64,000 bases of DNA from Amycolatopsis acidiphila (GTDB taxonomy: Bacteria > Actinomycetota > Actinomycetes > Mycobacteriales > Pseudonocardiaceae). Made by a program: the position numbers and the translations under genes. Below, in pieces: positions 1,814 to 38,629 of this stretch. The notes under the pieces were generated by a model. It was given only the letters and a program-made list of their open reading frames with translations, was not told where the DNA came from and made no database searches. The stretch lies in contig NZ_CP090063.1 of NCBI RefSeq assembly GCF_021391495.1, forward strand, positions 2,542,001 to 2,606,000, written 5' to 3'. The first letter of the stretch is position 1; each line of letters begins with the position of its first letter.

Positions 1814-1824
1814 GAGGAGCCGTG

Positions 1825-5056: not shown

Positions 5057-5140
5057 CTCGCCGCCATTCTGCCAGCCCCGGGCTGCGGTGTGCCGGATCC
5101 GCGCGGCAGAGCCACCGGGCTGCCGAGCCTGCGCCGCGGC

Positions 5141-5677: not shown

Positions 5678-5688
5678 ACGGCGGCGGG

Positions 5689-23474: not shown

Positions 23475-24110
23475 TCAGGACACCGTGTAGGCGTGCGTCA
23501 GCTCCACCCCGTCGGGCAGGGCGAGCGAGAGGGTCCAGCGGGCACCGGCGACGAACTCGCCGTCGAGCAGCGGCAGGGTGCCGCAGAAGATCACCAGGTC
23601 GCGCTCCGCAGGCCCCTGGTACCGGCCCAGCACGTCGGTCGGGACGCGCAGGGCGCTCAGGAAGCCGCGCTGGTAGGCGGCTCCGTCCACAGTGGATGCT
23701 GCCGCGACCGCGTCCCAGTCGATGCCGTCCGCGGGGACGACCGTCGTGCCCAGGGGTTTGACGCAGGCGGCCTTGGACTTGGCCACGCTTTCGCGCTCGA
23801 CGTCGCGGTCGGTGTGGTCGGAGCCGACCGTCAGGTACAGCTTGCCCCCGGCCCGGATGAGCACCGGCTCGACCTCGCCGGAGGTGTTGGTGCCCTCGAC
23901 CTCGACAGCCGCCGCCTGGGTGGCCAGCGCGGAATCCACCGGATAGAACGCCGGCACCGACTCCGGTGGCGCCACGCCGATCGCGGCCAGCTCGTCGATG
24001 TGCTTCTTCACCGACGCCTCGTCGCGTCCGGTGTAGCCGGCGATGACGAGGTCGAAGTCGGCGAGCGTGAGCTGCTCGCCCGTCCCGGCCACGGTGAACG
24101 TCAGGGTCAT
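23475..24110 (-). CDS. DUF2848 family protein
   Basis: 211-residue protein matching the DUF2848 family, which resembles fumarylacetoacetate hydrolase in fold. It starts LTLADFDLVIAGYTGRDEAS, then the conserved HIDELAAIGVAPPESVPAFY, SGEVEPVLI, VGSDHTDRDVE and KPLGTTVVPADGIDWD. Members sit in catabolic clusters, but I know of no demonstrated reaction; a hydrolase or decarboxylase acting on a ring-opened acid is a fair guess. Its start overlaps the CN-hydrolase stop by 4 bp (ATGA). Confidence 0.85.
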   Translation of the reverse strand: MTLTFTVAGTGEQLTLADFDLVIAGYTGRDEASVKKHIDELAAIGVAPPESVPAFYPVDSALATQAAAVEVEGTNTSGEVEPVLIRAGGKLYLTVGSDHTDRDVERESVAKSKAACVKPLGTTVVPADGIDWDAVAAASTVDGAAYQRGFLSALRVPTDVLGRYQGPAERDLVIFCGTLPLLDGEFVAGARWTLSLALPDGVELTHAYTVS

Positions 24111-24910
24111 GCGTCTGCTCCTTGGAGATCGGTGTAGGTCGGCAACCGGTCGGCGAGGACCGGGAACTGCTTCCGCACGGTAGGCACCACGGCCGGATCC
24201 GCCTCGCACCAGGTGATGCCCTCGGTGGTGCCCGCCTCGGCGAGCACGGTGCCCCACGGGTCCACCACCCGGCTGTGCCCGGCCAGCTCCACCCCGGCCT
24301 GCGTGCCGGTGGCGTTGCACGCGATGAGCAGGACCTGTTCCTCCACGGCACGCACGGACGTGAACAGGCGCCAGTGCTCGAGCCGGGCGGCGGGCCACGC
24401 CGCGGGCACGATCACGACCTGCGCGCCGACATCGACCAGGCAGCGCCACAGCTCCGGGAACCGCAGGTCGTAGCACGTGGTCCCGGCGACGGTGCCGAAC
24501 GGCGTATCGGTCGTGGCGACCCTGTTGCCGGCCTGCAGCAGCTGTGCCTCCTTCGACTCGTAGCCGAAGACGTGGATCTTGCTGTAGCTGTGCACCACCG
24601 AGCCCGACGGGTCCAGCAGCGCCGCGGTGTTGCGCAACGCGCCGTCCGGCCTTCGCTCGACGAAGCTGCCCACATGCAGGTAGGCCCCGGTCTCCCGGGC
24701 CAGTTCGGACAGTCCCGACACGGTGGCGCCGTCGGCGGGTTCGGCTTCGCGGTCGTAGTCGTCGAACGCGAAATAGCCCGCCGCCCACAGCTCGGGCAGG
24801 ACGATGAGGTCGGCGCTCGCGGCCGAGCGGACCAGCCCGGCCACCCGCTCGCGCCGGTCCGCGACACTTTCGTCGCCGGGGCTGGCGACCTGGACGAGCG
24901 CGATCCTCAC
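24107..24910 (-). CDS. Carbon-nitrogen hydrolase (nitrilase superfamily amidase)
   Basis: 267-residue amidase-type nitrilase-superfamily enzyme with the catalytic triad in place: Glu40 (VLPELW), Lys110 (SYSKIHVFG) and Cys145 (TTCYDLRFPE). It hydrolyses an amide or carbamoyl group; the closest relatives by motif are omega-amidase/NIT-like and deaminated-glutathione amidases. GTG start, GTGA overlap with the upstream gene. In a cluster with a flavin monooxygenase and UbiD decarboxylase it may release ammonia from an amide formed when an N-heterocycle is opened (inference). Confidence 0.92.
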   Translation of the reverse strand: MRIALVQVASPGDESVADRRERVAGLVRSAASADLIVLPELWAAGYFAFDDYDREAEPADGATVSGLSELARETGAYLHVGSFVERRPDGALRNTAALLDPSGSVVHSYSKIHVFGYESKEAQLLQAGNRVATTDTPFGTVAGTTCYDLRFPELWRCLVDVGAQVVIVPAAWPAARLEHWRLFTSVRAVEEQVLLIACNATGTQAGVELAGHSRVVDPWGTVLAEAGTTEGITWCEADPAVVPTVRKQFPVLADRLPTYTDLQGADA

Positions 24911-25815
24911 CAGAGGCTCCGGACGCTTCCGGCCACGACGTCGTCGTAGCCGAGGCCGAGCTCGGTCAGGCCGCTCGCGCGGGCGAACCCGGTCAGCCCG
25001 GCGACGGCTTCGCGGGTGACCGCCGGCTGGTAGAAGTCCAGGTCGCGCTCGATCAGGGCGGCGATCAGCTCGGCCTCCATCGCCGGGAACAGGGCCCGGC
25101 CGACCTGGGTCGCCAGCGCGGTGTCCGCGCGCAGTTCGCGCTGCGCGCGCATGATGCCCCGGACGGCGGCCGCGGTGGCGTCGGGCTGGTCGCGGATGGT
25201 CCGCCCCGACGCCATGAGCGCGGGGAAGGTGAACAGCGCCGCGTCACCACCGTCACGGCGGGCGTCGACGACGACCCGACCGACGCCGTTCCGCACGGCG
25301 ACCTCGGTGCCCATCCCGTTGGCCCAGAAGGCGTCGATCTTCCCCTCCTGCAGGGCCTGCGCGGCCGTGACGCCGAACGAGACGTTGCCCGCGGTGCCGG
25401 GCACGGGGGCGATCGTGACGCCCGCGGTGTCGAGGTCGACGCCTTCGACGTCCAGGAGCCGCCGCAGGCCGAGGTCGGGCCCCGGGGCCGCGCCGATCCG
25501 CACGTCGTGCAGCTTCGCGAGGGTTTCCCTCGTCACATCCAGGTCCGGGCGCACGACCAGGAACCAGTACATGTTGCGCGAAAGCGACGCGAGCAGCTTC
25601 ATGTCGCCCCAGTCCGGGTCGGCGTAGAGCGGCGCGTGCGCCGTGCCGGCCAGGAAGTCGATTTCGCCCTCTCGCAGGGCGACGGCGGCGTCGGTGACCG
25701 GGAACAGCAGGTCGAGTTCCACGTCGAGGCCCTCGTCCCGCAGATATCCCAGCTCGACCGCGGCGATCGCGGGGAAGTAGGAGTTGGAGACGAGATCGGG
25801 CACGGCAAGGCGCAT
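24907..25815 (-). CDS. SsuA/THI5-like periplasmic-binding-fold protein lacking a signal peptide
   Basis: 302-residue protein of the NMT1/SsuA/THI5 fold: VELGYLRDEGLDVELDLL, then FLAGTAHAPLYADPDWGD and IGAAPGPDLGLRRLLD. Unlike a normal binding protein it begins directly with the mature fold (MRLAVPDLVSNSYFPAI); no hydrophobic leader or lipobox is present and no better start lies upstream. No permease or ATPase is nearby except the permease tail remnant at 19373. It may be a cytoplasmic enzyme or ligand-binding protein, or a binding protein that lost its leader. Confidence 0.8.
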   Translation of the reverse strand: MRLAVPDLVSNSYFPAIAAVELGYLRDEGLDVELDLLFPVTDAAVALREGEIDFLAGTAHAPLYADPDWGDMKLLASLSRNMYWFLVVRPDLDVTRETLAKLHDVRIGAAPGPDLGLRRLLDVEGVDLDTAGVTIAPVPGTAGNVSFGVTAAQALQEGKIDAFWANGMGTEVAVRNGVGRVVVDARRDGGDAALFTFPALMASGRTIRDQPDATAAAVRGIMRAQRELRADTALATQVGRALFPAMEAELIAALIERDLDFYQPAVTREAVAGLTGFARASGLTELGLGYDDVVAGSVRSLW

Positions 25816-25866: not shown

Positions 25867-27222
25867 TTAGTATTTGGGGTCAAGTTCGCGCACCTGCTCG
25901 GCGGAGCGCGCCCGGACGGCCCGCAGCACGAGCACGGTGATCGCGCACAGCACCGCCGGGAACGCGAAGACGAGGAAGTACGCCGGGAAGGGCAGCGCCA
26001 GCTTGAGCAGGTAGCCGCCGATGAGCGGGCCGAGCAGGCCGCCGAGCCTGCCGATGCCCAACGCCCAGCCGAGTCCGGTCGCCCGCGCCTCGGGGCCGTA
26101 GGTCGCCATCACGAGCGTGTGCACGACGTTCTGGCCGCCGATGATCAGCGCCCCCGCGAGCGCGTTCAGCGTGTAGAGCGCGACCAGCGAGGTGGCGAAG
26201 CCGAAGAAGACCAGGCACACGCCGCCCGCGGCGAACGCCACGGCGAGCGCGAAGTACGGGTTCACGCGGTCGAGGACCCAGCCGAGGACGAACCCGCCGA
26301 CCGTCGCGGCCGCGGCCTGCTCGATCGCGTACGAGTAGCTGCTGACCAGCGACAGCCCGTGCGACACCAGCAGCGAGACCATCCAGAAGTCCAGTGCGTA
26401 GACGACGAACTGCAGGAACAGGTACAGCAGCGACAGCGAGATCGTGGAGCGCCGGTAGCGGTCTGTCCACAGTGTACGGAACTGGATCTTGCCGTCCTGG
26501 CGCTTCGGGCCGGCGAAGAAGGTCTCCGGATCGGCGGTCCGCGCGGTCGGCCAGATCGTCGGGTACAGCTTTTCGACGGTCGCGAGCGCGCGGTCGAACA
26601 GCCGCCGGGTGGCCAGGTACTGCGGGGTTTCCGGGACCAGCCAGGCGATCAGCCCGGCGACCAGTAGTGCCAGGTACGACAGGTGGAACAGCGGGCGCCA
26701 GCCGAAGCGGGGGACCAGCAGGGTGGCGGCGATCGCGGCGACCATGAAGCCGAAGGTGAAGCAGCCCGCGGACACCGCGATCATCCGCGCGCGCCGCCGG
26801 ACGGGTACGTACTCGCTGAGCATGGCGATGGTGCCGGGCAGGACGCCGCCCATGCCGACGCTCGCGCAGAAGCGCAGGACCGCGAACTGCGTGTAGTTCT
26901 GCGCGAACCCGGCGGTGCCCATGAACAGGGCGAACACGATGACCCCGGCGACGAGGACGCGTTTGCGGCCCCAGCGGTCGCCGAGTGCGCCGAGGCCGAC
27001 CGCGCCCAGGAACAGGCCGACGAAGGTGTAGGAGGCGAGCAGTCCCGCCTGCACGGACGAGAAGTGCCAGGTCGCGACGAGCTTCGGGAGTGCGTAGGAC
27101 AGTGCCTGGAGGTCGTAGCCGTCGAAGATCACGGCCGTGCTCGCGATGGCGGCGATGCCCAGTACCCGCCGGGGAAGGGGGTTCTCGGCGAGGCATTGGT
27201 CGTAGGTGACTGCGGATTGCAT
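25867..27222 (-). CDS. MFS transporter, aromatic acid:H+ symporter type
   Basis: 451-residue major facilitator with 12 predicted helices. AAHS-type motifs are FDGYDLQALSYALP in helix 1 and GALGDRWGRKRVLV as the loop 2-3 signature. ATG 27222 follows GAGGAG by 5 bases; the longer frame runs into the operator region. It probably imports the aromatic or heteroaromatic acid processed by the surrounding enzymes. A Glu/Asp-rich central loop (about 220-260) separates the two halves. Confidence 0.92.
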   Translation of the reverse strand: MQSAVTYDQCLAENPLPRRVLGIAAIASTAVIFDGYDLQALSYALPKLVATWHFSSVQAGLLASYTFVGLFLGAVGLGALGDRWGRKRVLVAGVIVFALFMGTAGFAQNYTQFAVLRFCASVGMGGVLPGTIAMLSEYVPVRRRARMIAVSAGCFTFGFMVAAIAATLLVPRFGWRPLFHLSYLALLVAGLIAWLVPETPQYLATRRLFDRALATVEKLYPTIWPTARTADPETFFAGPKRQDGKIQFRTLWTDRYRRSTISLSLLYLFLQFVVYALDFWMVSLLVSHGLSLVSSYSYAIEQAAAATVGGFVLGWVLDRVNPYFALAVAFAAGGVCLVFFGFATSLVALYTLNALAGALIIGGQNVVHTLVMATYGPEARATGLGWALGIGRLGGLLGPLIGGYLLKLALPFPAYFLVFAFPAVLCAITVLVLRAVRARSAEQVRELDPKY

Positions 27223-27252
27223 CCGCGCTCCTCGGGTCCGGGAGAAATTACT

Positions 27253-27264
27253 GTACTTCAGTAC
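27253..27264. promoter_or_regulatory. GTACT-TC-AGTAC palindrome upstream of the MFS gene
   Basis: A perfect 5+5 palindrome around TC, 31 bases upstream of ATG 27222 in an AT-rich 190-bp divergent gap. TTGACTTGA, half of the palindrome in front of MarR regulator 1, follows directly at 27265-27273. Both halves point to the MarR pair controlling the carrier. Confidence 0.6.
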
Positions 27265-27371
27265 TTGACTTGACAGCAGTAAATATTGAGGAGATGCTAG
27301 GTCGCGCCCCACCCGGTGTCAACGCGGAATTTGGCTCTACCGCAACGAAAACGGGCTGCCCCGGCGGGCGT

Positions 27372-27415: not shown

Positions 27416-28960
27416 GTGACGAGTCCTGACGAGTATCCCTACGGTGACCTGCGCGAGTACCTGGCGGAGCTGGAGAAGAAGGACCTGCTGGTCCGGGTGA
27501 GCAGGCCGGTGAACAAGGACACCGAGCTGGTTCCCCTGGTGCGGCTGCAGTTCCGCGGGCTGCCCGAGCACGAGCGGCTGGCCTTTCTGTTCGAGCACGT
27601 CGTCGACTCCAGTGGCCACCGGTACGACGGCTCGGTCGTGCTGGGCGCGTTCGCCGCGTCACCGGCCGTGTACGCCACGGCACTGGCCGCCGAACCGGAC
27701 GAGGTGCCCGCCCGCTGGGCCGCCGCGCTGTCCGGGCCGGTGGCGCCGGTGGTGGTGGCGACGGGGCCGTGCAAGGAGATCGTCCTCGAAGGACAGTCGC
27801 TGCTGGACGCGGGCGGGGTCGACGGGTTCCCGCATCCCATCTCCACGCCGGGCTTCGACCCGGCGCCGTTCCTGACCGCGCCGTACTGGGTGACGAAGGA
27901 CCCGGAGACCGGCGAGTACAACGTCGGGATCTACCGGGGCATGATCAAGGGGCCGGACCGGATCGGCCTGCAGATGGACACCCCCACCCAGCACATCGCG
28001 ATCCACCTGGAGAAGGCGCGCCGCCTGGGCCGCAAGCTGGAGGCGGCGATCGTGCTGGGCGCGGTGCCCGCCGTCGGGTTCGCCAGTGCGCAGAAGATCC
28101 CGTTCGGGGTGAGCGAGTACGCCGTCGCGGGCGGGCTGATGGGGCGGCCGCTGGAGGTCGTGCGCTGCGAGACGGTCGACCTGGAGGTGCCGGCGCACGC
28201 CGAGATCGTCATCGAGGGCGAGATCGACCCGGAGCACCTGGAGTCCGAGGGGCCCTTCGGCGAGGCGAGCGGGTACATGGGCCCGCGCACGAGTTCGCCG
28301 GTGCTGCGGGTCCGCGCGATCACGCACCGGCGCTCGCCGGTGGTGCAGGCGTTCATCAGCGAGTTCCCGCCGAGCGAGTCGACGCTGATGCGCAAGATCG
28401 CGTTCGAGAACGTGTACCTGAGGTTCCTGCGGCAGGCGTGCAACATCGACGCGGTGCGCCGGGTGGTGACCTATGAGAGCGGCACCTGCAACATGTTCTT
28501 CGTGATCCAGCTGAAGGATCCGCGGCCGGGGCAGGCGCGGCAGGCGCTGTACGCCGCGTCCGGCTACGAGGCGTCGATGGGCAAGACGATCGTCGCCGTC
28601 GACTCCGACGTCGACCCGGAGGACCTGGACTCGGTGGTGTGGGCGATGAGCTTCCGGATGCAGCCGGCGCGGGACGTGACCGTCCTGCCCGGAAAACTGC
28701 CGCGGCTCGACCCGTCGGCGGTGCCGGGGGAGCAGTCCTCGGCGCTGCTCGTCGACGCCACCCGCAAGCGCCCGTACCCGCCGACCTCCCTGCCGGCGCA
28801 GGAGTTCATGGAGAACGCGCTCGGCATCTGGCAGGAGCTGGGGCTGCCGGAGCTGTCGCTGGCGAACCCCTGGCACGGCTACGAACTGGGCGAGTGGTCC
28901 GATGAGGACCGCCGCAACGCCGCGGCCGCGGTGGAGGGCAGGTACGCGGCGGAGAGCTGA
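27416..28960 (+). CDS. UbiD-family prenylated-FMN-dependent decarboxylase
   Basis: 514-residue UbiD-type reversible decarboxylase. It begins DLREYLAELEKKDLLVRVSR as in the family. Conserved stretches are the YNVGIYRGMIKGPDRIGLQM metal/prFMN region, KIPFGVSEY and ESEGPFGEASGYMG, which supplies the catalytic Glu/Arg-type residues. Such enzymes need prFMN made by a UbiX; none is seen in this window. It is divergent from the MFS carrier and probably removes or adds a carboxyl group on the aromatic or heteroaromatic substrate. Confidence 0.93.
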   Translation: MTSPDEYPYGDLREYLAELEKKDLLVRVSRPVNKDTELVPLVRLQFRGLPEHERLAFLFEHVVDSSGHRYDGSVVLGAFAASPAVYATALAAEPDEVPARWAAALSGPVAPVVVATGPCKEIVLEGQSLLDAGGVDGFPHPISTPGFDPAPFLTAPYWVTKDPETGEYNVGIYRGMIKGPDRIGLQMDTPTQHIAIHLEKARRLGRKLEAAIVLGAVPAVGFASAQKIPFGVSEYAVAGGLMGRPLEVVRCETVDLEVPAHAEIVIEGEIDPEHLESEGPFGEASGYMGPRTSSPVLRVRAITHRRSPVVQAFISEFPPSESTLMRKIAFENVYLRFLRQACNIDAVRRVVTYESGTCNMFFVIQLKDPRPGQARQALYAASGYEASMGKTIVAVDSDVDPEDLDSVVWAMSFRMQPARDVTVLPGKLPRLDPSAVPGEQSSALLVDATRKRPYPPTSLPAQEFMENALGIWQELGLPELSLANPWHGYELGEWSDEDRRNAAAAVEGRYAAES

Positions 28961-28967
28961 GCTCGGG

Positions 28968-29531
28968 TCAGTCGGCCACGGGCTGGTAGGTGACCGTCAG
29001 CAGGGTCAGCCGCCGGGCGCTGACGGCCGCGGCGCCGACGTCGGGCAGGACGGCGGCGTCGGTGTCGCCGGGGCCGCGGTAAGAGATCGGGCCGGTGAGG
29101 GTCAGGTCGCGGTCCTGGCCGTCCTCGGACGCGCGGCTGTACGTGCGCAGCCGCCCTGTCGCATAGCTGCCGTCGTCGAGCAGGCAGCCGACGTGGATCC
29201 GCGCGCCGGGGTGCTCGGAGAACAGCAGCGTCCACGCCGACGCGTACGCCTCGTGCTCCCGTTTGCGCCGCCGCAACCGGGGGCCCGCCGCGAACGCGGC
29301 CAGCGCGGCGGCGACGACGAGCAGCCCGGCGCCCCACGCCGTCACCGAGCTCAGGTGGTCGATCCCGTAGCGCCCCGGGTCGCGCAGGAGCAGCCGCACG
29401 GTCGGGGCCCACGACGGCACGATCGCGCGCACGACGGCGAACAGCAGCAGCACGACGGCGTCGACGATGACGCTCACGAACGCCAGCTCGATCGTCTCCC
29501 GGAACACCGACACGTCCCGGCTCGACGCCAC
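28968..29531 (-). pseudogene. DUF6338-like membrane protein, 5' end missing
   Basis: The surviving 188 codons start at about VSVFRETIELAFVSVIVDAV, followed by two membrane segments and a basic cytoplasmic tail ending in LTLLTVTYQPVAD. From memory this resembles the actinobacterial DUF6338 family, whose members carry about 35 more residues with an N-terminal helix. Here the frame upstream of about 29531 is low-complexity Arg-rich nonsense and no ribosome site is visible. It abuts a separate truncated gene on the other strand. Probably a broken gene. Confidence 0.6.
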
Positions 29532-29552
29532 AGGAGCGCGCCGCCGACGGCT

Positions 29553-29915
29553 TCGAGCTATCTGGTCGAACCCACTCCGTCGCCGTTCGGTGGCCAGTTC
29601 GTGCACGATGCGGCGCCACCGCCCATCGCACCGGAAGGTGGTCCGTTCACGCCGCCGGGGGTACCGCGTGGTCCGCAGGCGTCGGCGTTGCCGCCGGTGC
29701 AGCAGCCGGGCGGTGGTCAGTTCGTGCTGGACGACGACGCACCGCCGACGGCGAGCAGCTCCAGTCACCTCTGCTCGCCGTCCGCGCTGCCCTCCGCGCT
29801 GCCGCCGGTGGCACCGCCGTTCCCGCCGGGGGCGGCACCGGAAGCGCCCCCGCCGGAGGAGAAACCCCGCCGGTTCTTCAGGCGAAAAGATCGCTCCGCG
29901 AAGCCGCCAGCTTGA
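29553..29915 (+). pseudogene. Proline-rich C-terminal remnant of an unknown gene
   Basis: Bases 29553-29915 encode a tail with a repeated GGQFV-(H/L)DDA-type unit (PFGGQFVHDAAPPP and GGGQFVLDDDAPP), rich in Pro/Ala and ending in a basic KPRRFFRRKDRSAKPPA. The frame upstream is the antisense of the DUF6338-like gene, so the N-terminal part is gone. It overlaps the end of the convergent LeuD-like gene by 38 bp. Function unknown. Confidence 0.5.
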
Positions 29916-30375
29916 TCAGGCCGCCCGCCTCGAGCATCTGCAGCAGGAACGGGTCCGCGGGCTCGGCGCTGCGCGTCGCGCCCGTCGTTTCGTTGCGGAA
30001 CTCGCCCGTGGCGATGTCCACCGTGATCTCGTCTCCGTCGGAGACGAGGGCCGTGGCGCCGTCCAGTGCGAGCGCGGGCAGACCGATCTCGAAGCAGTTG
30101 CGGTAGAACGTCCGCGCGAACGTGTCGGCCACGACGCAGCCGATTCCCGTCGCCCGCAACGCCTTCGTCGCGATCGCCCGGCCCGAGGACTGGCCGAAGT
30201 GCCGCCCCGCAACCACGATGTCACCCGAGCGAACCTGCCGCGGGAACTCCGGGTTGAGGTCCTCCAGCACATGCCTGACGATCTCCTCCATCGGCTCGAA
30301 CACGTACTTGGACTTCACGAGCCGGTCGGTCGGGATGTTGTCGCCGAACTTCCAGCAGCGGCCGGTGAACCTCAT
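29878..30375 (-). CDS. Aconitase/LeuD-type small subunit 1
   Basis: 165-residue swivel-domain subunit of an aconitase-family hydro-lyase. It begins MRFTGRCWKFGDNIPTDRL and has the substrate-loop sequence VAGRHFGQSSGRAIATKAL, where isopropylmalate isomerase small subunits have GSSRE. The Glu is replaced by Ala (GQSSGRAIA). ATG 30375 overlaps the stop of the large-subunit gene by 4 bp. It probably pairs with that unusual cysteine-free large subunit. Last gene of an eight-gene operon. Confidence 0.85.
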   Translation of the reverse strand: MRFTGRCWKFGDNIPTDRLVKSKYVFEPMEEIVRHVLEDLNPEFPRQVRSGDIVVAGRHFGQSSGRAIATKALRATGIGCVVADTFARTFYRNCFEIGLPALALDGATALVSDGDEITVDIATGEFRNETTGATRSAEPADPFLLQMLEAGGLIKLAASRSDLFA

Positions 30376-31628
30376 GCCCGCACCTCCGTGGGATCGGTGA
30401 TGACGCCGGTCAGCGCCGCCGCCGCGACCGAAGCCGCCGACGCCAGGTACATCCGCGCCTCCGGGCTTCCGTTGCGGCCGGGGAAGTTGCGCGAATGCGT
30501 CGAGATCATCGCCTCGCCCGCCGCCATCGCGCCCATGTTGTAGGCCTGGTTCGACCCCGTGCTCGGCGGGAACCAGGTGGCGCCCGCCTCGTGCAGCGGC
30601 AGCACCAGGCCCTCCCGCATCGCCTCGGTGAACACCTCGCGGCTCGAGGGCACGATGTTGAACCGCACCGAGGGGTGCACCGCCCGCCCCGCAAGAAGCG
30701 CGGCCGCGATCCGGATGTCCTCCAGCCGCCCGCCGCCGTGCCCGCCCAGCTCCGCCCAGCCGACCGCGTTGCCCGCCACGTCGGCGACCGGCTTCACGTT
30801 GCCCACAGTGGGCGGACAGGCCACCTGCGGGCCCACCTCGCCGACATCGAAGCGCAGCACCTGCGCGGCCTCGCCGCCGTCGCTGCGCGGGAACTCCGCG
30901 GGCAGCTCGCCGGGCAGGCCGCGCAGGAAGGCTTCGGTCGCGTCGTCCGGCTCCACGAAGCTGCACTTCGCGCCGAGATCCACGCACAGCAACGGGAACA
31001 GCCACCGGTCCCAGAACTCGAGCTGCTTGACGTACGGCCCGGCGAACTCGACCGCCGCGTAGTTCAGCTCGCCCTCGCCGATCCGCGCCACCAGCCACAG
31101 CGCGATGTCCCGCGCCGAGGTGCCCGGCTGCGGGGTGCCCGACAGTTCGATCCGTACCGTGTGCGGCACCTTGAACCACGCCTTGCCGTAGGGCAGCACG
31201 GTTCCGGCGTGGGAGTCGTTGCCCAGCGCCACGGCGAGCGCGCCGACGGTGCCGTGCACGGGCGTATGGCTGTCCGAGCCGACCACGATCATGCCCGGCT
31301 TGACCAGCCCGCGCCGCACGAGCACGTGGTGCAGGTTGCCGTTGCCGCAGTCGAACAGCCGGATGCCGTGGCGCGCCGCCCAGTCGCGGTTGGCCTGCAG
31401 CACCGTCGCCTGCTGCTCGGTCGGCGGGGAGAAGTGGTGGTCGAACACCATCACCACGCGGTCGGGATGACGCACCTTCCCGCCGACCTGCTTGTCGAAC
31501 ACGCCCGCGGTCAGGTAACCGGACAGGTCGTGCATGATCAGCCGGTCCACGTTCGCGATGACGATCTCCCCGGGCTCGACCGACGACCGTCCACTGGCGC
31601 GGGCGAGGATCTTCTCGACGACATTCAT
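30372..31628 (-). CDS. Aconitase/LeuC-type large subunit 1, lacking all three Fe-S cysteines
   Basis: 418-residue protein that aligns end to end with its neighbour large subunit 2 and keeps the substrate-binding landmarks (VMVFDHHFSPPTEQQA, VGSDSHTPVHGTVGAL, RNFPGRNGSPEARMYLASA). At the first cluster Cys (IGSCAN in the paralog) it reads LGGHGGG; at the CxxC pair (PGCGAC) it reads PPSTGSN. The cysteines are thus replaced by His, Thr and Asn. The reading frame is intact and overlaps both neighbours by 4 bp, so it is not a decayed gene. It may use another metal, be cluster-free, or act as a structural partner. Confidence 0.88.
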   Translation of the reverse strand: MNVVEKILARASGRSSVEPGEIVIANVDRLIMHDLSGYLTAGVFDKQVGGKVRHPDRVVMVFDHHFSPPTEQQATVLQANRDWAARHGIRLFDCGNGNLHHVLVRRGLVKPGMIVVGSDSHTPVHGTVGALAVALGNDSHAGTVLPYGKAWFKVPHTVRIELSGTPQPGTSARDIALWLVARIGEGELNYAAVEFAGPYVKQLEFWDRWLFPLLCVDLGAKCSFVEPDDATEAFLRGLPGELPAEFPRSDGGEAAQVLRFDVGEVGPQVACPPTVGNVKPVADVAGNAVGWAELGGHGGGRLEDIRIAAALLAGRAVHPSVRFNIVPSSREVFTEAMREGLVLPLHEAGATWFPPSTGSNQAYNMGAMAAGEAMISTHSRNFPGRNGSPEARMYLASAASVAAAALTGVITDPTEVRA

Positions 31629-32893
31629 CCCGCCACCGCCATGATCTCCGCCGGGTGGGCGATGCTGCCGCGGATCGCGGTCGCCGCCGCGGTGGCCGGG
31701 CTGCCCAGGTAGATCTTCGAGTCGTAGCTGCCCATCCGGCCCTGGAAGTTCCGGTTGGCGGTGGAGAAGGTGGCCTCGCCGTCGGCCATCGCGCCGCCGT
31801 TGCCCGCGCACGCCCCGCAGCCGGGGTTGGTGATCATCGCGCCGGCTTCGATGAGCGTGCTGACGATTCCGTCCGCGGCCGCCTTCGCCATGACCGTGGC
31901 CGAGGCGGGCGTGACGATGAGCCGCACCCCGTCGGCCACCCGGTGCCCGGCCAGTACCCGAGCCGCGATCGCGAGGTCGTCGTACTTCGCGTTGGCGCAC
32001 GAGCCGATGAACACCTGGTTCACCTTCGTGCCCGCGACCTCGTCCACCCCGACCACGTTGTCGACGGTGTGCGGCACCGCGACCTGGGGTGTCAGCGACG
32101 AGCCGTCGACGGTGAGCCGTCGCTGGTACTGCGCGCCCGGGTCGGGCAGCAGCACCTCGTAGTCCCGCGCGCCGGCCTCGTCGAGGTAGCCGACGGTGGT
32201 CTCGTCCGGGGCGACGAAGGCGTTCTTCGCGCCCATCTCCATGGCCAGGTTGCAGAACGTCATCCGCTCCGACACCGACATCGCCTCGGTGAACGAGCCG
32301 CCGAACTCGACCGAGCAGTAGGTGGCCCCGTCCGCGCCGAGGTCGCCGATGAGCCGCAGCATCACGTCCTTGGGGTAGGTGCCGGCCGGCAGCTCGCCCT
32401 CGACCTCGACCCGGATGCTCTGCGGCACCTTCATCCACAGCTTCCCGGTGACCCAGGCCGCGGTGATCTCGCTGAAGCCGACGCCGGTGCCGAACGCGCC
32501 CAGCGCGCCGTAGATCGTCGAGTGCGAGTCGGTGCCGATCACCAGCTGTCCCGGCTTGATCAGCCCGTGCTCCATCAGCACGATGTGCGCGATGCCGGCG
32601 TTGACGTCGAAGAAGTGCCGCACGCCCATCCGCTGCGCGAACTCCCGGCACAGCTGGTGGTCCGCCGCCGTCTTCGCCGTCTGCGCCGGGGAGATGTGGT
32701 CCATCACCATCGCGATGCGGCCCACGTCGTAGAGCTGCTCGACGCCCATCCGCTCCAGCGTCCGGATGCACCGCCAGCTCGCCGTGTGGCTCATGTACAG
32801 GTCGGGATAGGCGTCCACGATCTGCCCCGGGGCGAGGTCCTGCTCGCCCGAGGCGCGCTCGAGTGCCTTCTGCGCGAAGGTCTTGGGGGTCAT
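31625..32893 (-). CDS. Aconitase/LeuC-type large subunit 2 (complete Fe-S cysteines)
   Basis: 422-residue large subunit of a 3-isopropylmalate/methylmalate dehydratase-like enzyme. The [4Fe-4S] ligands are present: FIGSCANAKYDDL and ITNPGCGACAGN. Other landmarks are MVMDHISPAQTAKTA and GTDSHSTIYGALGAFGTGV. It catalyses hydration, dehydration or isomerisation of a branched C4-C7 dicarboxylate or hydroxyacid. Placement in a catabolic operon with two M24 proteins, and not with leucine genes, argues against a role in leucine synthesis. It overlaps both neighbours by 4 bp. Confidence 0.92.
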   Translation of the reverse strand: MTPKTFAQKALERASGEQDLAPGQIVDAYPDLYMSHTASWRCIRTLERMGVEQLYDVGRIAMVMDHISPAQTAKTAADHQLCREFAQRMGVRHFFDVNAGIAHIVLMEHGLIKPGQLVIGTDSHSTIYGALGAFGTGVGFSEITAAWVTGKLWMKVPQSIRVEVEGELPAGTYPKDVMLRLIGDLGADGATYCSVEFGGSFTEAMSVSERMTFCNLAMEMGAKNAFVAPDETTVGYLDEAGARDYEVLLPDPGAQYQRRLTVDGSSLTPQVAVPHTVDNVVGVDEVAGTKVNQVFIGSCANAKYDDLAIAARVLAGHRVADGVRLIVTPASATVMAKAAADGIVSTLIEAGAMITNPGCGACAGNGGAMADGEATFSTANRNFQGRMGSYDSKIYLGSPATAAATAIRGSIAHPAEIMAVAG

Positions 32894-33384
32894 GCGTTCC
32901 TCCGCATCAGGTAGGGGATGAGACCCCCACTGGCCAGGATGTCCTTGATGCCCTGCGGGTAGGGCGCGAAACCGAAGCGCTGCTCGCCCACCTCGACCAC
33001 ACCCGCGTCGTGGTCGACCCAGACCGGGGTGTCCTCGCCGACCGCCGCGACCGCCTCGGGGCACTCCACCGCGATCAGCCCGGTGTTGATGGCGTTGCGG
33101 AAGAACACCCGCGAGAACGAGACGGCCAGCACCGCCTTGATGCCCGCGCCGATCAGGCAGCTCGCCGCCTGTTCCCGGGCGCTGCCACAGCCGAAGTTGC
33201 GCCCGGCGACCAGCACGTCGCTGCGCCGCAGGTGCTCCTGGACCTCCCGCCCGAGCGGTTCGAACGCGTGCTCGCCCAGCTCCTGCGGGTCGATGCTGAC
33301 CAGGTAGCGGCCGGGGATGATCACGTCGGTGTTCACGTCGTCGCCGAACAGGATCGGTGCGCCACCGGTTCTCGTGTCCGTCAC
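32890..33384 (-). CDS. Aconitase/LeuD-type small subunit 2
   Basis: 164-residue small subunit with canonical motifs FGDDVNTDVIIPGRYL, GRNFGCGSAREQA (substrate loop) and FFRNAINTGL. GTG 33384 follows GGAGGAG by 8 bases; the longer upstream frame is antisense noise. It pairs with large subunit 2. The sequence differs much more from small subunit 1 than expected for a recent duplication, so the two pairs probably have different substrates or successive steps. Confidence 0.92.
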   Translation of the reverse strand: MTDTRTGGAPILFGDDVNTDVIIPGRYLVSIDPQELGEHAFEPLGREVQEHLRRSDVLVAGRNFGCGSAREQAASCLIGAGIKAVLAVSFSRVFFRNAINTGLIAVECPEAVAAVGEDTPVWVDHDAGVVEVGEQRFGFAPYPQGIKDILASGGLIPYLMRRNA

Positions 33385-34460
33385 GGGCTCGTCTCCTCCA
33401 GGAACCAGTCGGTGGGCACGACATGACCCAGCTCGCGCTCCTCGGCGAGCTTCAGCGCGCGGGCGCACACCGCCGCGAACTGGATGCCCATGCCCGTGTT
33501 GTTGGCGAAGACCGTCACGTCGTCATGGCCGGCGCGCGCGGGCCCGTCTTCGAGCAGGACATCGCCCAGCTCCTTGATGTCCTCCCACTTCATCCGGCCG
33601 CGCTCGACCGGGCCGAGGATGTCGAACTGCTTGTCGTGGTGGACCTGCTCGCGCGAGAGCACCACGATCCGGTCCGCCCGGTCGAACGTCGCGTCGTCCA
33701 GCTCGCGCCGGGTCGCCGTGCCGTCCGGTGAGGTGATGGCGGTGACGTGGGCGCCGGCCTCGAGCCACGCACCCTCGAAGCAGGGGTCCATCGCCGCGGT
33801 CGCGCAGGTGACGATCCCGCAGCCTTCGACGGCTTCGCGCGGGCTTTCGGCCGCGACGATCCGGCGTCCGGTGCGCTCGCTCCACGTCTTGGCGAAGGTC
33901 TTCCGGTGCTCCGGCGTCGGGCTGTGGACCCGGACCTCCTCGATCTCCGGGCGCACCATGAGCAGGCACTCCAGATGGGCCTCGGCCTGCCAGCCGGAGC
34001 CGAACATGCCCGCAACCCGGACGTCCGCATTGGACAGTTCGCGGATGCCGAGCGCGGAGGTCGCGCCCACGCGCATCTTCTGGATGAAGCTGTCGTGCAG
34101 GATCGCCAGCGGCTCCAGGGTTTCCATGCTGTAGAGCGTGACCAGCCCGACGTAGCGGCCACCCGGCGCGGCGGGGATCAGGCGCCGCCGCTTGACGCCG
34201 CTGGGCAGTGTCTCGACACCCGCGATGTCCGACGTGATGCGCAGCGCCCACACCCCGCTGGAGACGTTGCCGCCCTCCTGTGACTTGAAGCGGAACCGGA
34301 AGCCGGGATGCCGCGGGTCCTCCACCGGGAAGTAGGTGTGGTTGCGGGGGCGGTTCGCGCCCAGCCCCGAGGAGAGCTCGCGGTAGGCGGTCTCCAGCGC
34401 GTCGATGGTCTCACCGGGGGTGAGCACCTTCTCGACGTCCGCATTGGACAGGATCCTCAT
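33381..34460 (-). CDS. Ornithine cyclodeaminase/mu-crystallin family protein
   Basis: 359-residue NAD(P)-dependent protein of the OCD/mu-crystallin family. Visible are MRVGATSALGIRELS, the dinucleotide-binding loop MFGSGWQAEAHLECLLMVR and a C-terminal GDVLLEDGPARAG. Family activities include ornithine cyclodeaminase, ketimine/pyrroline-2-carboxylate reductase and alanine dehydrogenase. Next to two creatinase-like hydrolases, an imine reductase or amino-acid deaminating role on a ring-opened product is plausible; a similar M24 plus OCD pairing occurs in ectoine utilisation (EutD/DoeA and EutC). Coupled by 4-bp overlaps. Confidence 0.9.
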   Translation of the reverse strand: MRILSNADVEKVLTPGETIDALETAYRELSSGLGANRPRNHTYFPVEDPRHPGFRFRFKSQEGGNVSSGVWALRITSDIAGVETLPSGVKRRRLIPAAPGGRYVGLVTLYSMETLEPLAILHDSFIQKMRVGATSALGIRELSNADVRVAGMFGSGWQAEAHLECLLMVRPEIEEVRVHSPTPEHRKTFAKTWSERTGRRIVAAESPREAVEGCGIVTCATAAMDPCFEGAWLEAGAHVTAITSPDGTATRRELDDATFDRADRIVVLSREQVHHDKQFDILGPVERGRMKWEDIKELGDVLLEDGPARAGHDDVTVFANNTGMGIQFAAVCARALKLAEERELGHVVPTDWFLEETSP

Positions 34461-35386
34461 GCGGTCAGCACCTCCGTTCCGGAGTTCGTGACGAGTACGG
34501 TGTCGGCGGCGACCGCGCCGCCGTCCTCCACGGCGACCACGACGACCTCTCCGGCGTTGAGCACGCGGTCGCCGGACTGGCCGGCGTACTCGCCGTCGGT
34601 GGACAGGTCGGCGTGGTGCACCACGCGGGCACCGCGCACCGCGCCGGTCCGCACCCCGTCGCCGACGGTGCTCACGGCTTCGCGCAGCCGTTCGGCCAGC
34701 GAGGCGTCGCGGGCCACGCGCAGCCAGCTGTTGCGGTACTGCCCGGTGATCTCCACGGAGGTCGGCGTCGCGCGCACGAGCACATCCGTGAACCCGCCAG
34801 AGCGGACCACCCGCTCGGCGGCGGAGATCTTCTCCTGACCGGGCAGGCCGTCGGCCGCGGTCGCGGCCTCGGCGAGCACCGCGCCTGCCTGCCGCAGCAG
34901 GGACTTCTCCGGCTCGGAAGGCTGGAGGCGGAACTGCCGCACCAGTCCTTCCAGCGGGCGCACCACCCAGCCCGGGGCGGCGGCGCCCACCTCGTCGATC
35001 AGCGCGGTCGGCCACAGGCTCGCGTCGACGATGCCGAGCGTGCCCGGCCGGCGCTCGTCCAGCAGCGCGGCGACCAGCGCGCCGAACGCCTTGCCGCTGC
35101 GCAGATCCGTGAGCGTGGAGGTCCGGCGCATCCAGGTGTGCACCCGCGGCGACAGCTTCGTCAGCAGCGCGGGCTCGCCGTCGACGGGGATCGCCAGCAT
35201 GCCCTCGTTCCAGTAGATGCACAGGTTGCTCAGGTAGGCGATGTCGTCGGAGCGGTACACGTCGCCGTAGACGAGCGCGACCTCGACACCCTCCGCGCCG
35301 AGCTGCTCGCGGACCCGGTCGATGCGTTGCCGCCACTCGGCTTCCGGGATCTCGGCGGGGTCGAGGACGACCAGGCCTCGCTTCAT
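34457..35386 (-). CDS. Degenerate M24 (creatinase/aminopeptidase P-like) protein, short form
   Basis: 309 residues, about 70 shorter than its neighbour. Residues about 1-150 match the N-terminal creatinase domain (VALVYGDVYRSDDIAYLSNL), and the rest is a shrunken pita-bread fold ending VAADTVLVTNSGTEVLTA. None of the usual Asp-Asp-His-Glu-Glu metal ligands can be recognised, so a metallopeptidase activity is unlikely. It starts exactly at the stop of the longer M24 gene (1-bp overlap). Probably a partner subunit of the following M24 protein, or a non-metal hydrolase. Confidence 0.8.
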   Translation of the reverse strand: MKRGLVVLDPAEIPEAEWRQRIDRVREQLGAEGVEVALVYGDVYRSDDIAYLSNLCIYWNEGMLAIPVDGEPALLTKLSPRVHTWMRRTSTLTDLRSGKAFGALVAALLDERRPGTLGIVDASLWPTALIDEVGAAAPGWVVRPLEGLVRQFRLQPSEPEKSLLRQAGAVLAEAATAADGLPGQEKISAAERVVRSGGFTDVLVRATPTSVEITGQYRNSWLRVARDASLAERLREAVSTVGDGVRTGAVRGARVVHHADLSTDGEYAGQSGDRVLNAGEVVVVAVEDGGAVAADTVLVTNSGTEVLTA

Positions 35387-36519
35387 CAGGCGTTCACCTC
35401 GTTCGTTTCGAAGAGCTTGCGCTCGGTTTCGAGCAGGACCTCGCAGCCGTCGGCGGTGACCCGGACCGGGTCGCCGAGCACGTGGTAGCCCGCGATGGGG
35501 GTGTAGGTGTTGGGGTGGATGATGAACACCGCGTTCTCCGGCAGCACCGTGTGGTTGCCCTCGATGATCGGCGTCTCGTCCAGGTGCAGCCCGTGGCCGT
35601 GGCCGCGGACCCGGGTGTACTGGCTGGTGCAGTACTCGCCGTAGCCGTGGTGGCGGAAGACGTCGTTCTGCGCCACCGCCACCTCGTGCGCGGTGATGCC
35701 CGGCTTCACCACCGCCATCCCGGCCTCGACCGCCTCGTTGAACAGGTCGAAGGAGCGCTTCTGCGCGTCGCTGGCGCGCCCGACCACCGCCGAGCGGCAG
35801 ATCTGCAGCCAGTACCCGTCCATCTGGGGGGTGAGCTCGGTGCGCACCATGTCGCCGGTCTCGAGCAGCCGGGCCGAGGGCGGGGTCATCCCGCGCACCT
35901 CGTCCTTGCCGGACGCGATCAGCATGAAGTTGTCCTCCGCGCCGAGCCGCTTGATCTCGGCCTCGACCGCGGCGACGATCCGGTACTCGGGCAGGCCGGG
36001 TTCGAGCACGTCGACGAACGCGCGCCAGCCCGCCGCGCACACCTTGGCGCTGCGCCGCATCCTGGCCAGCTCCCACTCGCTCTTGACCAGGCGGGCGTTG
36101 TCCAGCATCGCGGTGGCGGACACGATCTCCGCGCCCGGCAAGGCTTCCCGCACCAGGTTCAGCAACATCGACGGCAGCAGCTCGTAGTGCGCGATGCCGA
36201 CCCGGCGGGCACCGCTGTCGCGCAGCCCGGTGACGAACCCGGCGGGCTCGGCGGGGTCCAGGAACCGCGCGTCGGTGACCCAGCCGCGGGCGGTGATCTC
36301 CGGGATGTCCTGGCGCCGGGTGGAGTAGGCGACCGGGTCGCCGGTCGCGGGCAGCGCGACGAACGCCGCGCTGCCGCCCACCCGCGCGTCGGCCAGGTAG
36401 CGCACGTTCTCGCGGCGCCAGCCCGGTCCGAACGCGAGCAGCAGGTCCAGTCCCGCCTCGGCCATACCCTCGCGGACCCGGCGGTGGCGCAGGTCCCGCT
36501 CTTGCAGGTCGTTCGTCAT
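35386..36519 (-). CDS. M24-family creatinase-like hydrolase
   Basis: 377 residues with an N-terminal creatinase domain (GPGWRRENVRYLADAR) and a pita-bread domain. The two metal Asp positions read Glu and Gln-like (TELTPQMDGYWLQICR) and the usual Glu of the EPG-Y motif is His (NAVFIIHPNTY), while the His loop is kept (GHGHGLHLDETPII). This pattern resembles non-peptidase members such as creatinase or ectoine hydrolase, which cleave C-N bonds of small cyclic or amidino compounds. Its start overlaps the MFS stop by 4 bp. Confidence 0.87.
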   Translation of the reverse strand: MTNDLQERDLRHRRVREGMAEAGLDLLLAFGPGWRRENVRYLADARVGGSAAFVALPATGDPVAYSTRRQDIPEITARGWVTDARFLDPAEPAGFVTGLRDSGARRVGIAHYELLPSMLLNLVREALPGAEIVSATAMLDNARLVKSEWELARMRRSAKVCAAGWRAFVDVLEPGLPEYRIVAAVEAEIKRLGAEDNFMLIASGKDEVRGMTPPSARLLETGDMVRTELTPQMDGYWLQICRSAVVGRASDAQKRSFDLFNEAVEAGMAVVKPGITAHEVAVAQNDVFRHHGYGEYCTSQYTRVRGHGHGLHLDETPIIEGNHTVLPENAVFIIHPNTYTPIAGYHVLGDPVRVTADGCEVLLETERKLFETNEVNA

Positions 36520-37928
36520 TCGTTCCCCAATTCCACAGTGGTGCGTACCAGGTTCTCGGCGTTGCTGTCCGGAGTGGACATCTCGGTGGCGATCTCCTCG
36601 ACGCTCTTGCCGCGCGTCTCCAGGGTCGCGATCAGCCCGGCGGTCGCCGCGATGGCCGAGATGACGGCGAAGAGCAGGAAGAAGACGTAGGAGGAGGCGT
36701 GCCAGGACAGCACGAACCCCACCGTGACCGGCATCAGCAGCCCGCCCACCTTCTGCCAGGCCGCCGCCCAGCCCAGGCCCGTCGCGCGGTTGGCGGTCGG
36801 GTACAGCTCGCTGGCGTAGACGAACAGCGTGCTGCCCGCGACCCCGCTGCCGAAGAACGTCGCCAGCGCCCCGGTCAGCACCACGGCGGAGGTGCCGGAG
36901 ACCGCGCCCCACAGCAGGCACAGCAGCCCGCTGAGCAGGAACGCCGGCGCCAGCGCCCAGCGGCGGCCCAACCGGTTGACCAGCTGGCCCGCGACCACCG
37001 CGCCGGCGACGCCCGCGGCGGTGATGATGCCGGTGTAGGCGAAGCTCGACAGCAGCCCGATGCCATGTGACTTCAGCACCGTGGGCAGCCAGGTGGACAG
37101 TCCGTAGAGGAACGCCCCGGCGCAGACCTCCATCACCCAGATCGCGATGGTGTAGCGGGAGTACCTGCCGCGCAACAGGTCCCGTACCGAGCCGGCGGCG
37201 TTGCCGTGTGCCGCCGGCGGGTCCGCCTGCCCGGAACCCGGCGCCACCGAGCCCCGGGTGAGCAGCTCGACGATCTCGGTGGCCTGCTCGCGCTTGCCGC
37301 GCCGCAACAGGTAGCGCACGGATTCGGGCAGGGTCAGCGCGACCAGCAGCGCGATCAGCACCGGGATCGTGCCGACGAAGAACATCGAGCGCCAGCCCAG
37401 TGCGGGCACGATCCCGATCGCCACGGCCGACGCGACCGGCAGCCCGATCAGCCAGGCCGCGGTCGCGAGCGTGACCAGCGGCCCGCGCCTGCGGGTCGGC
37501 ACGAACTCCGCGATGTAGGGCAGCACGATCGCGATCTCCGCGCCCAGCCCGATGCCCTGCACGGTGCGCGCGGCGACGAGCACCGGGTAGTTCCACGCGG
37601 CCGCCGCCAGCAGCGAGAACCCGCCGAAGATCAGGATCGACAGCGCCAGCGGGTACCGGCGACCCAGCCGGTCGGAGACGATGCCGGCCATGGCCGCCCC
37701 GACGAGCATGCCCGCGAACAGCGCTGAGCTGAGCACCCCGGCCTCGCCGCTGGTGAGCGCGAAGGCCGCGATCACCCCGGGCAGCACGAAGCCGGTGAGG
37801 TTGATGGTGAAGCCGTCGAAAAAGTGTCCCGCCAGCGCGGTCAGGTAGAACCGCGTGTGCGTCCGCGTGAAGGGGGAGTGGTCCAGACGGTGCAGCAGCT
37901 GCCCGTCCGTGCCGCTTGTTCTGGCCAT
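36516..37928 (-). CDS. MFS transporter heading the M24/aconitase-like operon
   Basis: 470-residue 12-helix major facilitator of the metabolite:H+ symporter type (HFFDGFTINLTGFVLP in helix 1, GIVSDRLGRRYPLAL loop motif). ATG 37928 is preceded by GAGGTG; the frame to 37958 would add ten residues over the intergenic gap. First gene of an eight-gene operon in which every junction overlaps, so its substrate is probably what the M24, OCD and aconitase-like enzymes degrade. Confidence 0.92.
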   Translation of the reverse strand: MARTSGTDGQLLHRLDHSPFTRTHTRFYLTALAGHFFDGFTINLTGFVLPGVIAAFALTSGEAGVLSSALFAGMLVGAAMAGIVSDRLGRRYPLALSILIFGGFSLLAAAAWNYPVLVAARTVQGIGLGAEIAIVLPYIAEFVPTRRRGPLVTLATAAWLIGLPVASAVAIGIVPALGWRSMFFVGTIPVLIALLVALTLPESVRYLLRRGKREQATEIVELLTRGSVAPGSGQADPPAAHGNAAGSVRDLLRGRYSRYTIAIWVMEVCAGAFLYGLSTWLPTVLKSHGIGLLSSFAYTGIITAAGVAGAVVAGQLVNRLGRRWALAPAFLLSGLLCLLWGAVSGTSAVVLTGALATFFGSGVAGSTLFVYASELYPTANRATGLGWAAAWQKVGGLLMPVTVGFVLSWHASSYVFFLLFAVISAIAATAGLIATLETRGKSVEEIATEMSTPDSNAENLVRTTVELGNE

Positions 37929-37968: not shown

Positions 37969-38445
37969 TCAGCGATCGTCGAGAAGGCTCTCGGTCTCGG
38001 AGTAGAGCCGGTGCATGACGGTGAGGAGATCTGCTCTGATGTGCTCGTCCAGCCCGGCGGTGAGCTCCGCGCTGAACTTCTCCAGTGCCAGGCGGCCCGC
38101 CTCTTGGGCCTCGCGCCCGGCCGCGGTCAGCGCCAGTGCCATGGTGCGCCGGTCCGCCGCTTCCGTCTCACGGGTCAGCAGTCCCTGCTTGACCAGCTTG
38201 TTGACGCTTTCGGACATGGTGGGCGGGTTGCGGTGCGCGAGGCGGCACAGCGCCATCAGCGATGTGTGCCCCGCGTCGACCCTGGAGAGGATCCGGTACT
38301 GACGGATCGTCAGCGGCACGTCGAGCCCGGCGAGGATCTCCGTCTGCAGCCGGGTCAGCCGGCCGGCGAACGACAACAGTGTCTCCCCGAAGGGCTGTGC
38401 GGCCGGGCTGCCCGGTGCCGCGGGACGTGCTTGGTCCTTGCTCAC
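37969..38445 (-). CDS. MarR-family regulator of the M24/aconitase-like operon
   Basis: About 158 residues from GTG 38445. The winged helix reads LTIRQYRILSRVDAGHTSLM, NPPTMSESVNKLVKQGLL and AADRRTMALALT. Upstream in-frame starts at 38478 and 38553 would include the palindrome at 38461-38475, so the later start is preferred. It is 40 bp upstream of, and co-oriented with, the MFS-led operon and is likely to repress both the operon and itself. Confidence 0.88.
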   Translation of the reverse strand: MSKDQARPAAPGSPAAQPFGETLLSFAGRLTRLQTEILAGLDVPLTIRQYRILSRVDAGHTSLMALCRLAHRNPPTMSESVNKLVKQGLLTRETEAADRRTMALALTAAGREAQEAGRLALEKFSAELTAGLDEHIRADLLTVMHRLYSETESLLDDR

Positions 38446-38460
38446 TTCGCCCACCAGAAC

Positions 38461-38475
38461 TTTCGGTGCCCGAAA
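38461..38475 (-). promoter_or_regulatory. TTTCGG-TGC-CCGAAA palindrome, probable MarR operator
   Basis: A 6+6 perfect inverted repeat 16 bases upstream of GTG 38445. Its position in the 5' region of the MarR gene suggests autoregulation of this gene and the operon behind it. Confidence 0.55.
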
Positions 38476-38629
38476 CATTGACGAGCTGACCGTACCTCCG
38501 CCCCCGTATCGCTGGCAAGGGCCTTTTCGCGAGGTGGTTCGCTTGCTGTTCAACGGCTTCCGGGCGAGCGGGCGGAACCGGGCGGGGCCGCCGGAGCCCG
38601 TTGCACATCCAGGGACTCGTGTCGTACGG

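Follow-up and report, generated by a model that had tools for sequence, protein, structure and literature searches.

A conserved LeuC-type branch of the aconitase superfamily without the cluster cysteines, encoded beside a normal LeuCD pair in a putative catabolic module of Amycolatopsis acidiphila

The 64,000-nucleotide stretch of the Amycolatopsis acidiphila genome analysed here (contig NZ_CP090063.1, positions 2,542,001 to 2,606,000; hereafter the window) contains a gene, leuCx (30372-31628, minus strand), that encodes a LeuC/aconitase-type large subunit of 418 amino acids (aa) in which all three cysteines of the iron-sulfur cluster site are replaced. The aconitase superfamily is the textbook case of iron-sulfur Lewis-acid catalysis. 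Our preferred reading, a tentative one that we place just short of an even chance, is that LeuCx and its small subunit LeuDx (29878-30375, minus strand, 165 aa) would constitute a branch of the aconitase/isopropylmalate isomerase superfamily that functions without a [4Fe-4S] cluster, acting as the second such enzyme in a module of some eight catabolic genes and catalysing a Lewis-acid-free reaction. Judging from the sequences compared, LeuCx is probably a working enzyme with a different chemistry and not a broken duplicate. Across the predicted homologs, we show that the cluster ligands and their surroundings are changed, that the residues assigned to substrate and proton handling are kept, that LeuCx-LeuDx is a conserved pair subject to purifying selection, and that it travels with a normal LeuCD pair.

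The frame of leuCx is uninterrupted from its ATG start and overlaps leuC (31625-32893) on one side and leuDx on the other by 4 bp, as a first-pass annotation of this DNA had noted without naming a strand; all three genes lie on the minus strand. When LeuCx was aligned with the adjacent LeuC by BLASTP (37% identity over 416 columns), the LeuC motif IGSCAN fell against LGGHGG and NPGCGAC against the PPSTGSN stretch of LeuCx, which bears out the claim of that annotation that the three cysteines had become His, Thr and Asn. In the numbering of mitochondrial aconitase (mAcn), Cys358 is replaced by His297, Cys421 by Thr357 and Cys424 by Asn360, the last assignment moving one column, to Gln361, depending on where the gap is placed. 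In aconitase, Cys358, Cys421 and Cys424 are the cluster ligands and Ser642 is the catalytic base (PMC8184944). Nor have the cysteines been relocated into the cluster motifs, since the four that LeuCx possesses (94, 215, 222 and 271) all lie outside them.

Scanning one genome for each of 84,980 species with the peptide words MHDLSGYL and SDSHTPVH returned 49 LeuCx loci. Both words sit away from the changed sites, so the loci were not selected for cysteine replacement, and members without both words are missed. The loci belong to Actinomycetes, Firmicutes (among them Alicyclobacillus), Proteobacteria, Deltaproteobacteria, Spirochaetes and, from the Chloroflexi, a Flexilinea. Residues were compared over 46 distinct rows of partner LeuC and 49 of LeuCx, the latter taken from 48 loci and from the window, with the frameshifted locus L051 omitted. 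Position 297 was His in 48 LeuCx rows and Thr in L049; Asn stood at position 360 in 48 rows, the frameshifted L025 having Gln there; and position 357 was Thr in 41, Ala in 4, Ser in 3 and His in L025. Cysteine occupied all three ligand positions in 46/46 partner LeuC rows and in 0/49 LeuCx rows. The first-pass annotation had proposed a database search for His/Thr/Asn members, and our protein search with LeuCx (7998 candidates scored, 1862 matches) found His297, Thr357 and Asn360 in 120/120 of the best 120 matches (73-100% identity, query included); close homologs keeping the cysteines were absent from these best 120 of 1862.

Two other cysteines of LeuCx, Cys94 (48/49 rows; 118/120 best matches) and Cys222 (47/49; 112/120), are nearly invariant and are absent or rare in partner LeuC, where Cys222 has a counterpart in 1/46 rows. 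Ser takes the place of Cys222 in L035 and, among the 120 best matches, in 7, with Asn in 1 more; His297 is retained in these proteins. The single row with Thr for His297, from a deltaproteobacterial metagenome-assembled genome (MAG; L049:3037-4797), also has Ser for Cys94 and Ala for Cys222. It is the deepest LeuCx in the tree described below, its small subunit reads ACSSGRA, and it is possibly an intermediate or a second variant.

The retention of substrate-binding stretches, which the first-pass annotation had also reported, holds for the residues that we mapped. The equivalents of mAcn Asp100, His101, His147, Asp165, Ser166 and His167 are kept in 50/50 LeuCx rows (the window counted twice), and those of Arg447 and Arg452 in 47/47 rows that reach them, L025 matching only through an out-of-frame tail. 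The mapping was made by alignment from mAcn residue 131 onward; for Asp100 and His101, which precede that stretch, we assume the equivalents from a shared DH motif. His121, Asp119 and His100 are also present in LeuCx. Asn258 and Asn446 of mAcn contact the cluster. The former has become Leu213 and Glu262 has become Asp217, both cluster-neighbour changes being fixed in 46/46 LeuCx rows, and the equivalent of Asn446 is replaced in all 47 rows reaching it (Ala in 33, Ser in 11, and Val, Thr and, out of frame, Gln). In the column comparison, which used 46 LeuCx rows and left out L025, L046, L048 and L051, 50 columns distinguish LeuCx from the aerobe-type partner LeuC at a level of at least 93% on each side, and the newly fixed residues of LeuCx include Asn98, Gly296, Phe353, Pro354, Asn360 and Gln361. 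The roles given to the mapped mAcn residues are in part those described in PMC8184944.

Against profile models, LeuCx matches PF00330 with 211.4 bits, over the gathering score and consistent with the aconitase three-domain fold, and this is the sole Pfam family that it matches. It falls under the cut-offs of all 19 listed NCBIfam models, including NF001614 (368.8 against 385), TIGR02086 (367.2 against 410.15) and TIGR01343 (344.4 against 385.7), three isopropylmalate isomerase (IPMI)/homoaconitase models that the cysteine-bearing partner LeuC (422 aa) passes. LeuDx scores 36.9 bits against PF00694 and 151.7 bits against TIGR02087 (LeuD/DmdB family; cut-off 108.95), which is the top model for both small subunits of the module, LeuD and LeuDx. 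The small-subunit loop described earlier as altered, GQSSGRAIA, is indeed present in LeuDx; it keeps Ser64 (mAcn Ser642) and Arg66 (mAcn Arg644), and the Glu of GSSRE is gone, the loop of the normal LeuD reading GCGSAREQA. SSGRA replaces GSxRE in 53/53 leuDx rows (rows longer than 120 aa that score >150 bits, each tandem copy taken separately) and stands within GQSSGRA in 52 of them. GSSRE is described as a conserved substrate-binding motif of small IPMI subunits and aconitases (PMC7308503). Two tandem leuDx copies follow leuCx in the anaerobe loci L021, L033, L042, L043 and L046, where a single large subunit may be served by two small ones.

In a tree of 93 proteins, LeuCx formed one clade of 45 rows with support of 100/100, and partner LeuC fell into an aerobe-type clade of 37 rows (95/99) and an anaerobe-type clade of 7 (100/100). 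The tree left out the LeuCx of L025, L046, L047, L048 and L051 (frameshifted or cut) and the LeuC of L039 and L051. Its outgroup, L001, a fragment of 35%, sits on a long branch, and long branches were flagged by the tree program, which leaves the rooting and the branching order of the clades unsure; the tree does not distinguish loss of the cluster in LeuCx from its original absence. The dN/dS ratios were 0.037-0.239 over nine LeuCx pairs and 0.027-0.186 over seven LeuC pairs. The distance matrices of LeuCx and LeuC correlated with r = 0.947 over 34 loci (sixteen anaerobe, edge or frameshifted loci left out), a value reached by 0/1000 permutations; other module gene pairs also correlate (0.70-0.93), as expected of an operon inherited as a block, and r = 0.947 therefore does not single out LeuC.

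Among 296 genomes sampled from the phylum, LeuCx was found only in its own genome (795 bits), and the next best protein scored 379 bits, a drop that again revealed no close homolog with the cysteines. LeuCx occurred in 4/19 genomes of the genus and in 9 of 297 sampled from the family (E <= 1e-100), and a plasmid search gave 12 records, each with <60% identity. The module is rare and its distribution patchy, in keeping with an accessory catabolic set. In the complete chromosome of Naasia aerilata (L048:10001-11236), leuCx and M24a, another gene of the module, are both split between frames, through decay or sequencing error.

All 4/4 LeuCx genomes of the genus hold an adjoining paralog of 37-38% identity, and in the family sample the same 9/297 genomes hold a close LeuC (E <= 1e-110), directly beside LeuCx in 9/9, two of these nine LeuC matches reading through one stop. 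Gene neighbourhoods were compared at the 49 loci and in the window, 50 places in all, of which 30 have full flanks (at least 6.5 kb before and at least 4.5 kb after leuCx). Within 8 kb, leuC, leuDx and the M24-family gene M24a were found in 30/30 of the full-flank places, its companion M24b in 29 and a gene for an OCD-family oxidoreductase in 25. The leuD gene was scored in 25/30, and the other five are anaerobe loci whose second small subunit is nearer leuDx. Over all 50 places, the redox enzyme is of the OCD type in 40 and PreA-like in 7, never both. The idea of a conserved cysteine-free clade adjoining a normal pair, put forward in the first-pass annotation, is thus supported by the 45-row clade, the 30/30 places and the 9/9 family genomes.

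In the window, eight minus-strand genes lie head to tail from 37928 to 29878 with overlaps of 1-4 bp. They encode, in order, an MFS transporter (36516-37928), the M24-family protein M24a (35386-36519, 377 aa), M24b (34457-35386, 309 aa), an OCD/mu-crystallin family NAD(P)-type oxidoreductase (33381-34460, 359 aa), LeuD (32890-33384, 164 aa, GTG start), LeuC, LeuCx and LeuDx. Ahead of the transporter gene, at the head of the cluster, stands a MarR-type regulator gene (37969-38553, minus strand; start codon uncertain). The top NCBIfam model of the transporter is an aromatic acid/H+ symport family (267.7 bits, under the cut-off of 418.55). A promoter/terminator scan gave no signal exceeding shuffles. 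This surrounding module, above all its second altered pair, M24a/M24b, had been omitted by the first-pass annotation. The metal ligands of M24 metallopeptidases are Asp, Asp, His, Glu and Glu. In M24a, 4/5 of these positions are changed, and they read Glu, Gln, His, His and Gly in 40/40 rows (>250 bits, >330 aa; the window counted twice), the first change, Asp to Glu, being conservative; the nearest solved relatives of M24a by sequence are prolidases. M24b is a degenerate pita-bread protein with a conserved N-domain, no M24 Pfam match and none of the usual metal-site sequence, and its model has an M24-type fold. Leucine biosynthesis was rejected as the role of the LeuCD-type pairs, since the 8.18-Mb genome, a single contig, carries a further two PF00330 genes outside the module, which, judged by length, are presumably LeuC and AcnA.

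If LeuCx-LeuDx works without a cluster, Ser64 of LeuDx would still take the proton next to the carboxylate, and the carboxylate-binding Arg residues and the His/Asp proton relays would still be in place. There would be no iron to pull off a hydroxyl, and the reaction would therefore be one needing no Lewis acid: either a double-bond (1,3-proton) isomerisation on a vicinal dicarboxylate, or the loss from such a dicarboxylate of a self-activated or protonatable leaving group such as an amine. His297, at the former Cys358 position, would be the likely acid, and the neighbouring Fe-S LeuCD would carry out a hydration or dehydration step before or after LeuCx-LeuDx. The module as proposed consists of a transporter, the M24a-M24b pair, a redox enzyme of the OCD or PreA-like type, LeuD-LeuC and LeuCx-LeuDx. 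Several points weigh against this reading. We infer the absence of metal from the ligands of LeuCx alone; Cys94 and Cys222 are nearly invariant, which a metal site could explain; and His297 is not universal, L049 differing there and at both cysteines. Moreover, the predicted local distance difference test score (pLDDT) of the LeuCx model falls to 71-78 over residues 351-370, the loop replacing the second cluster motif; leuCx is broken or split in L025, L046, L048, L051 and the genus mate G312; and 11/14 neighbour types (OCD excluded) recur in only 2-5 of the 50 places, so that context does not fix the substrate.

Those two cysteines are also the starting point for the idea of a metal-swapped enzyme, in which mononuclear Fe, Zn or Mn, bound through His297 with Cys94/Cys222, or with Asn360 or retained His/Asp residues, would serve as the Lewis acid. 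Three new and nearly invariant residues, their joint alteration in L049, which would fit one shared site, and the presence of His121/Asp119/His100 speak for this, but we regard it as doubtful: Cys222 gives way to Ser or Asn in proteins that keep His297, L049 manages without any of the three, the equivalents of Asn258 and Glu262 are now Leu and Asp, and the spatial closeness of His297, Cys94 and Cys222 is assumed. A site made of His297, Thr357 and Asn360 together is unlikely because Thr357 varies and L049 has Thr for His297; the interpretation in the first-pass annotation is partly supported, its conserved clade beside a normal pair standing and the new chemistry, different metal or heteromeric complex that it suggested being conjectural. 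LeuCx-LeuDx might instead be a non-catalytic partner that stabilises or regulates LeuCD, or channels substrate to it, in a hetero-complex. The constant proximity to LeuC in the full-flank places and family genomes, the co-inheritance of the two proteins and the presence in the module of a second pair with one degenerate member, M24a/M24b, are what such a pseudoenzyme would predict. Pseudoenzymes usually lose catalytic residues freely, however, and in LeuCx the mapped ones are kept except around the cluster; it has its own small subunit with Ser64 and Arg66, and it accompanies LeuC even where LeuC belongs to another clade (the 7 anaerobe rows), so that we consider this explanation rather improbable.

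More improbable still is an Fe-S cluster bound in an atypical way, for instance by Cys94, Cys222 and His297 or by a cysteine supplied by another chain. In AtAcnX, an aconitase X, a [2Fe-2S] cluster is bound by Cys273/Cys508/Cys510, so cluster ligands can move within the fold (PMC8184944), and LeuCx has gained two near-invariant cysteines, but the canonical and aconitase X positions are all without cysteine and Cys94 and Cys222 sit elsewhere. Finally, a lone decaying duplicate of the neighbouring leuC, which the five broken or split copies (some perhaps sequencing errors) might suggest, has next to no chance of being right, and was rejected on conservation across phyla, the separate well-supported clade and low dN/dS; the window copy is also intact.

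The closest known systems are the large subunits of isopropylmalate/citramalate isomerase and homoaconitase (LeuC/HacA; PDB 4kp1, 4nqy and 4kp2), from which LeuCx differs in lacking the cluster cysteines and the Asn258 and Asn446 equivalents and in scoring under the NCBIfam cut-offs. In aconitase X (AcnX), which includes cis-3-hydroxyproline dehydratase and phosphomevalonate dehydratase, a cluster is retained and the site of mAcn His147 is a Cys; LeuCx, whose sequence is LeuC-like, has His100 at this site. Membership of LeuCx in AcnX was rejected, with His100, His297 and Thr357/Asn360 standing at the would-be cysteine positions. Of the iron regulatory proteins, which are single-chain animal proteins, IRP1 retains the cysteines that hold the cluster and IRP2 is not known as an enzyme, whereas LeuCx lacks the ligands yet has the catalytic residues. 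The 2,3-dimethylmalate dehydratase DmdA/DmdB of nicotinate fermentation is an ordinary Fe-S enzyme. Like the pairs described here it is of the LeuCD type, its place being the catabolism of an N-heteroaromatic acid, and TIGR02087 is the best model for both small subunits of the module; we know of no M24, OCD or second LeuCD pair in its pathway. M24a scores far under the cut-offs of the ectoine hydrolase DoeA models (86.1 against 575 and 57.9 against 613), and creatinase works metal-independently. No report of a cysteine-free LeuC or of the module was found in the open-licence literature, as judged by titles and the starts of abstracts.

Gene types around leuCx were counted by phmmer (>60 bits) over the 50 places, and included HyuA (5), HyuB (5), PrpD (4), TctC (3), SsuA-type (4) and NMT1-type (10) proteins, HpaB (3), UbiD (3), PreA-like enzymes (7), DctM (6), DctP (5), an AbrB-like membrane protein (5) and a cupin (2). 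An SBP-like protein, which we take to resemble dihydroxyphthalate decarboxylase, is common to the neighbourhoods of L036 and L049; that of L049 has only a weak phosphonate-binding Pfam match and no NCBIfam match. The transporters and flanking genes (aromatic-acid-type MFS, NMT1/SsuA, TctC, TRAP, HyuAB with PrpD, HpaB and UbiD) suggest that the substrate is a small carboxylate, cyclic or aromatic, and we weakly infer that the pathway degrades a small cyclic (hetero)aromatic carboxylate, perhaps one containing N. Conceivable substrates that we considered were dipicolinate, quinolinate, nicotinate-like compounds and haem-derived imides. That OCD and PreA-like enzymes replace one another suggests that a C=N or C=C bond is reduced or oxidised, and a hydrolysis of the creatine/ectoine type is suggested by the altered M24 pair. 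A bolder extension, on balance unlikely, is a demetallated pathway in which the aconitase (LeuCx-LeuDx) and M24 hydrolase (M24a-M24b) families would both have lost their metal centres. LeuCx-LeuDx would then be an isomerase or C-N lyase relying on acid-base catalysis only, with a dicarboxylate from an opened nitrogen ring as its substrate.

Genes for a HyuA/HyuB-type hydantoinase together with MmgE/PrpD flank the module in L008, L010, L023 and L031, which represent several phyla, and the HyuA/B part of this set also flanks it in L026. Upstream of the module in L032, an Emcibacter MAG, lie genes of the protocatechuate 4,5-cleavage type (1394-6088; one locus only), encoding a LigB-type dioxygenase, an oxalomesaconate tautomerase, a CHA aldolase, a PIG-L-type protein and an amidohydrolase. 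In the window, an HpaB-type flavin monooxygenase gene (20905-22752, plus strand) and a UbiD-family decarboxylase gene (27416-28960, plus strand) lie near the module; L040 holds close relatives of both, and L027 holds an HpaB. A DUF6338 gene (28968-29768, minus strand) separates the module from the UbiD gene. Farther downstream is a candidate second catabolic operon, all on the minus strand (23475-24158, 24107-24910, 24907-25815 and 25867-27312), containing DUF2848, a carbon-nitrogen hydrolase, an NMT1-like binding protein and an aromatic-acid-type MFS transporter.

Many LeuCx proteins are named '3-isopropylmalate dehydratase large subunit' in databases (others 'aconitase family protein'), and the former name is probably wrong for them. 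If metal-free, LeuCx-LeuDx would be, to our knowledge, the first metal-free enzyme with the aconitase fold. In PMC8184944, members of the aconitase superfamily are described as containing a [4Fe-4S] cluster, or other clusters in aconitase X, and a common ancestor without a cluster is proposed. The LeuCx branch bears on that proposal. A conserved and selected branch without the ligands, in which the rest of the active site is kept, also amounts to a natural experiment on the cluster-free fold. Should our preferred reading hold, LeuCx-LeuDx would be an oxygen-insensitive aconitase-type enzyme, which could find use in biocatalysis.
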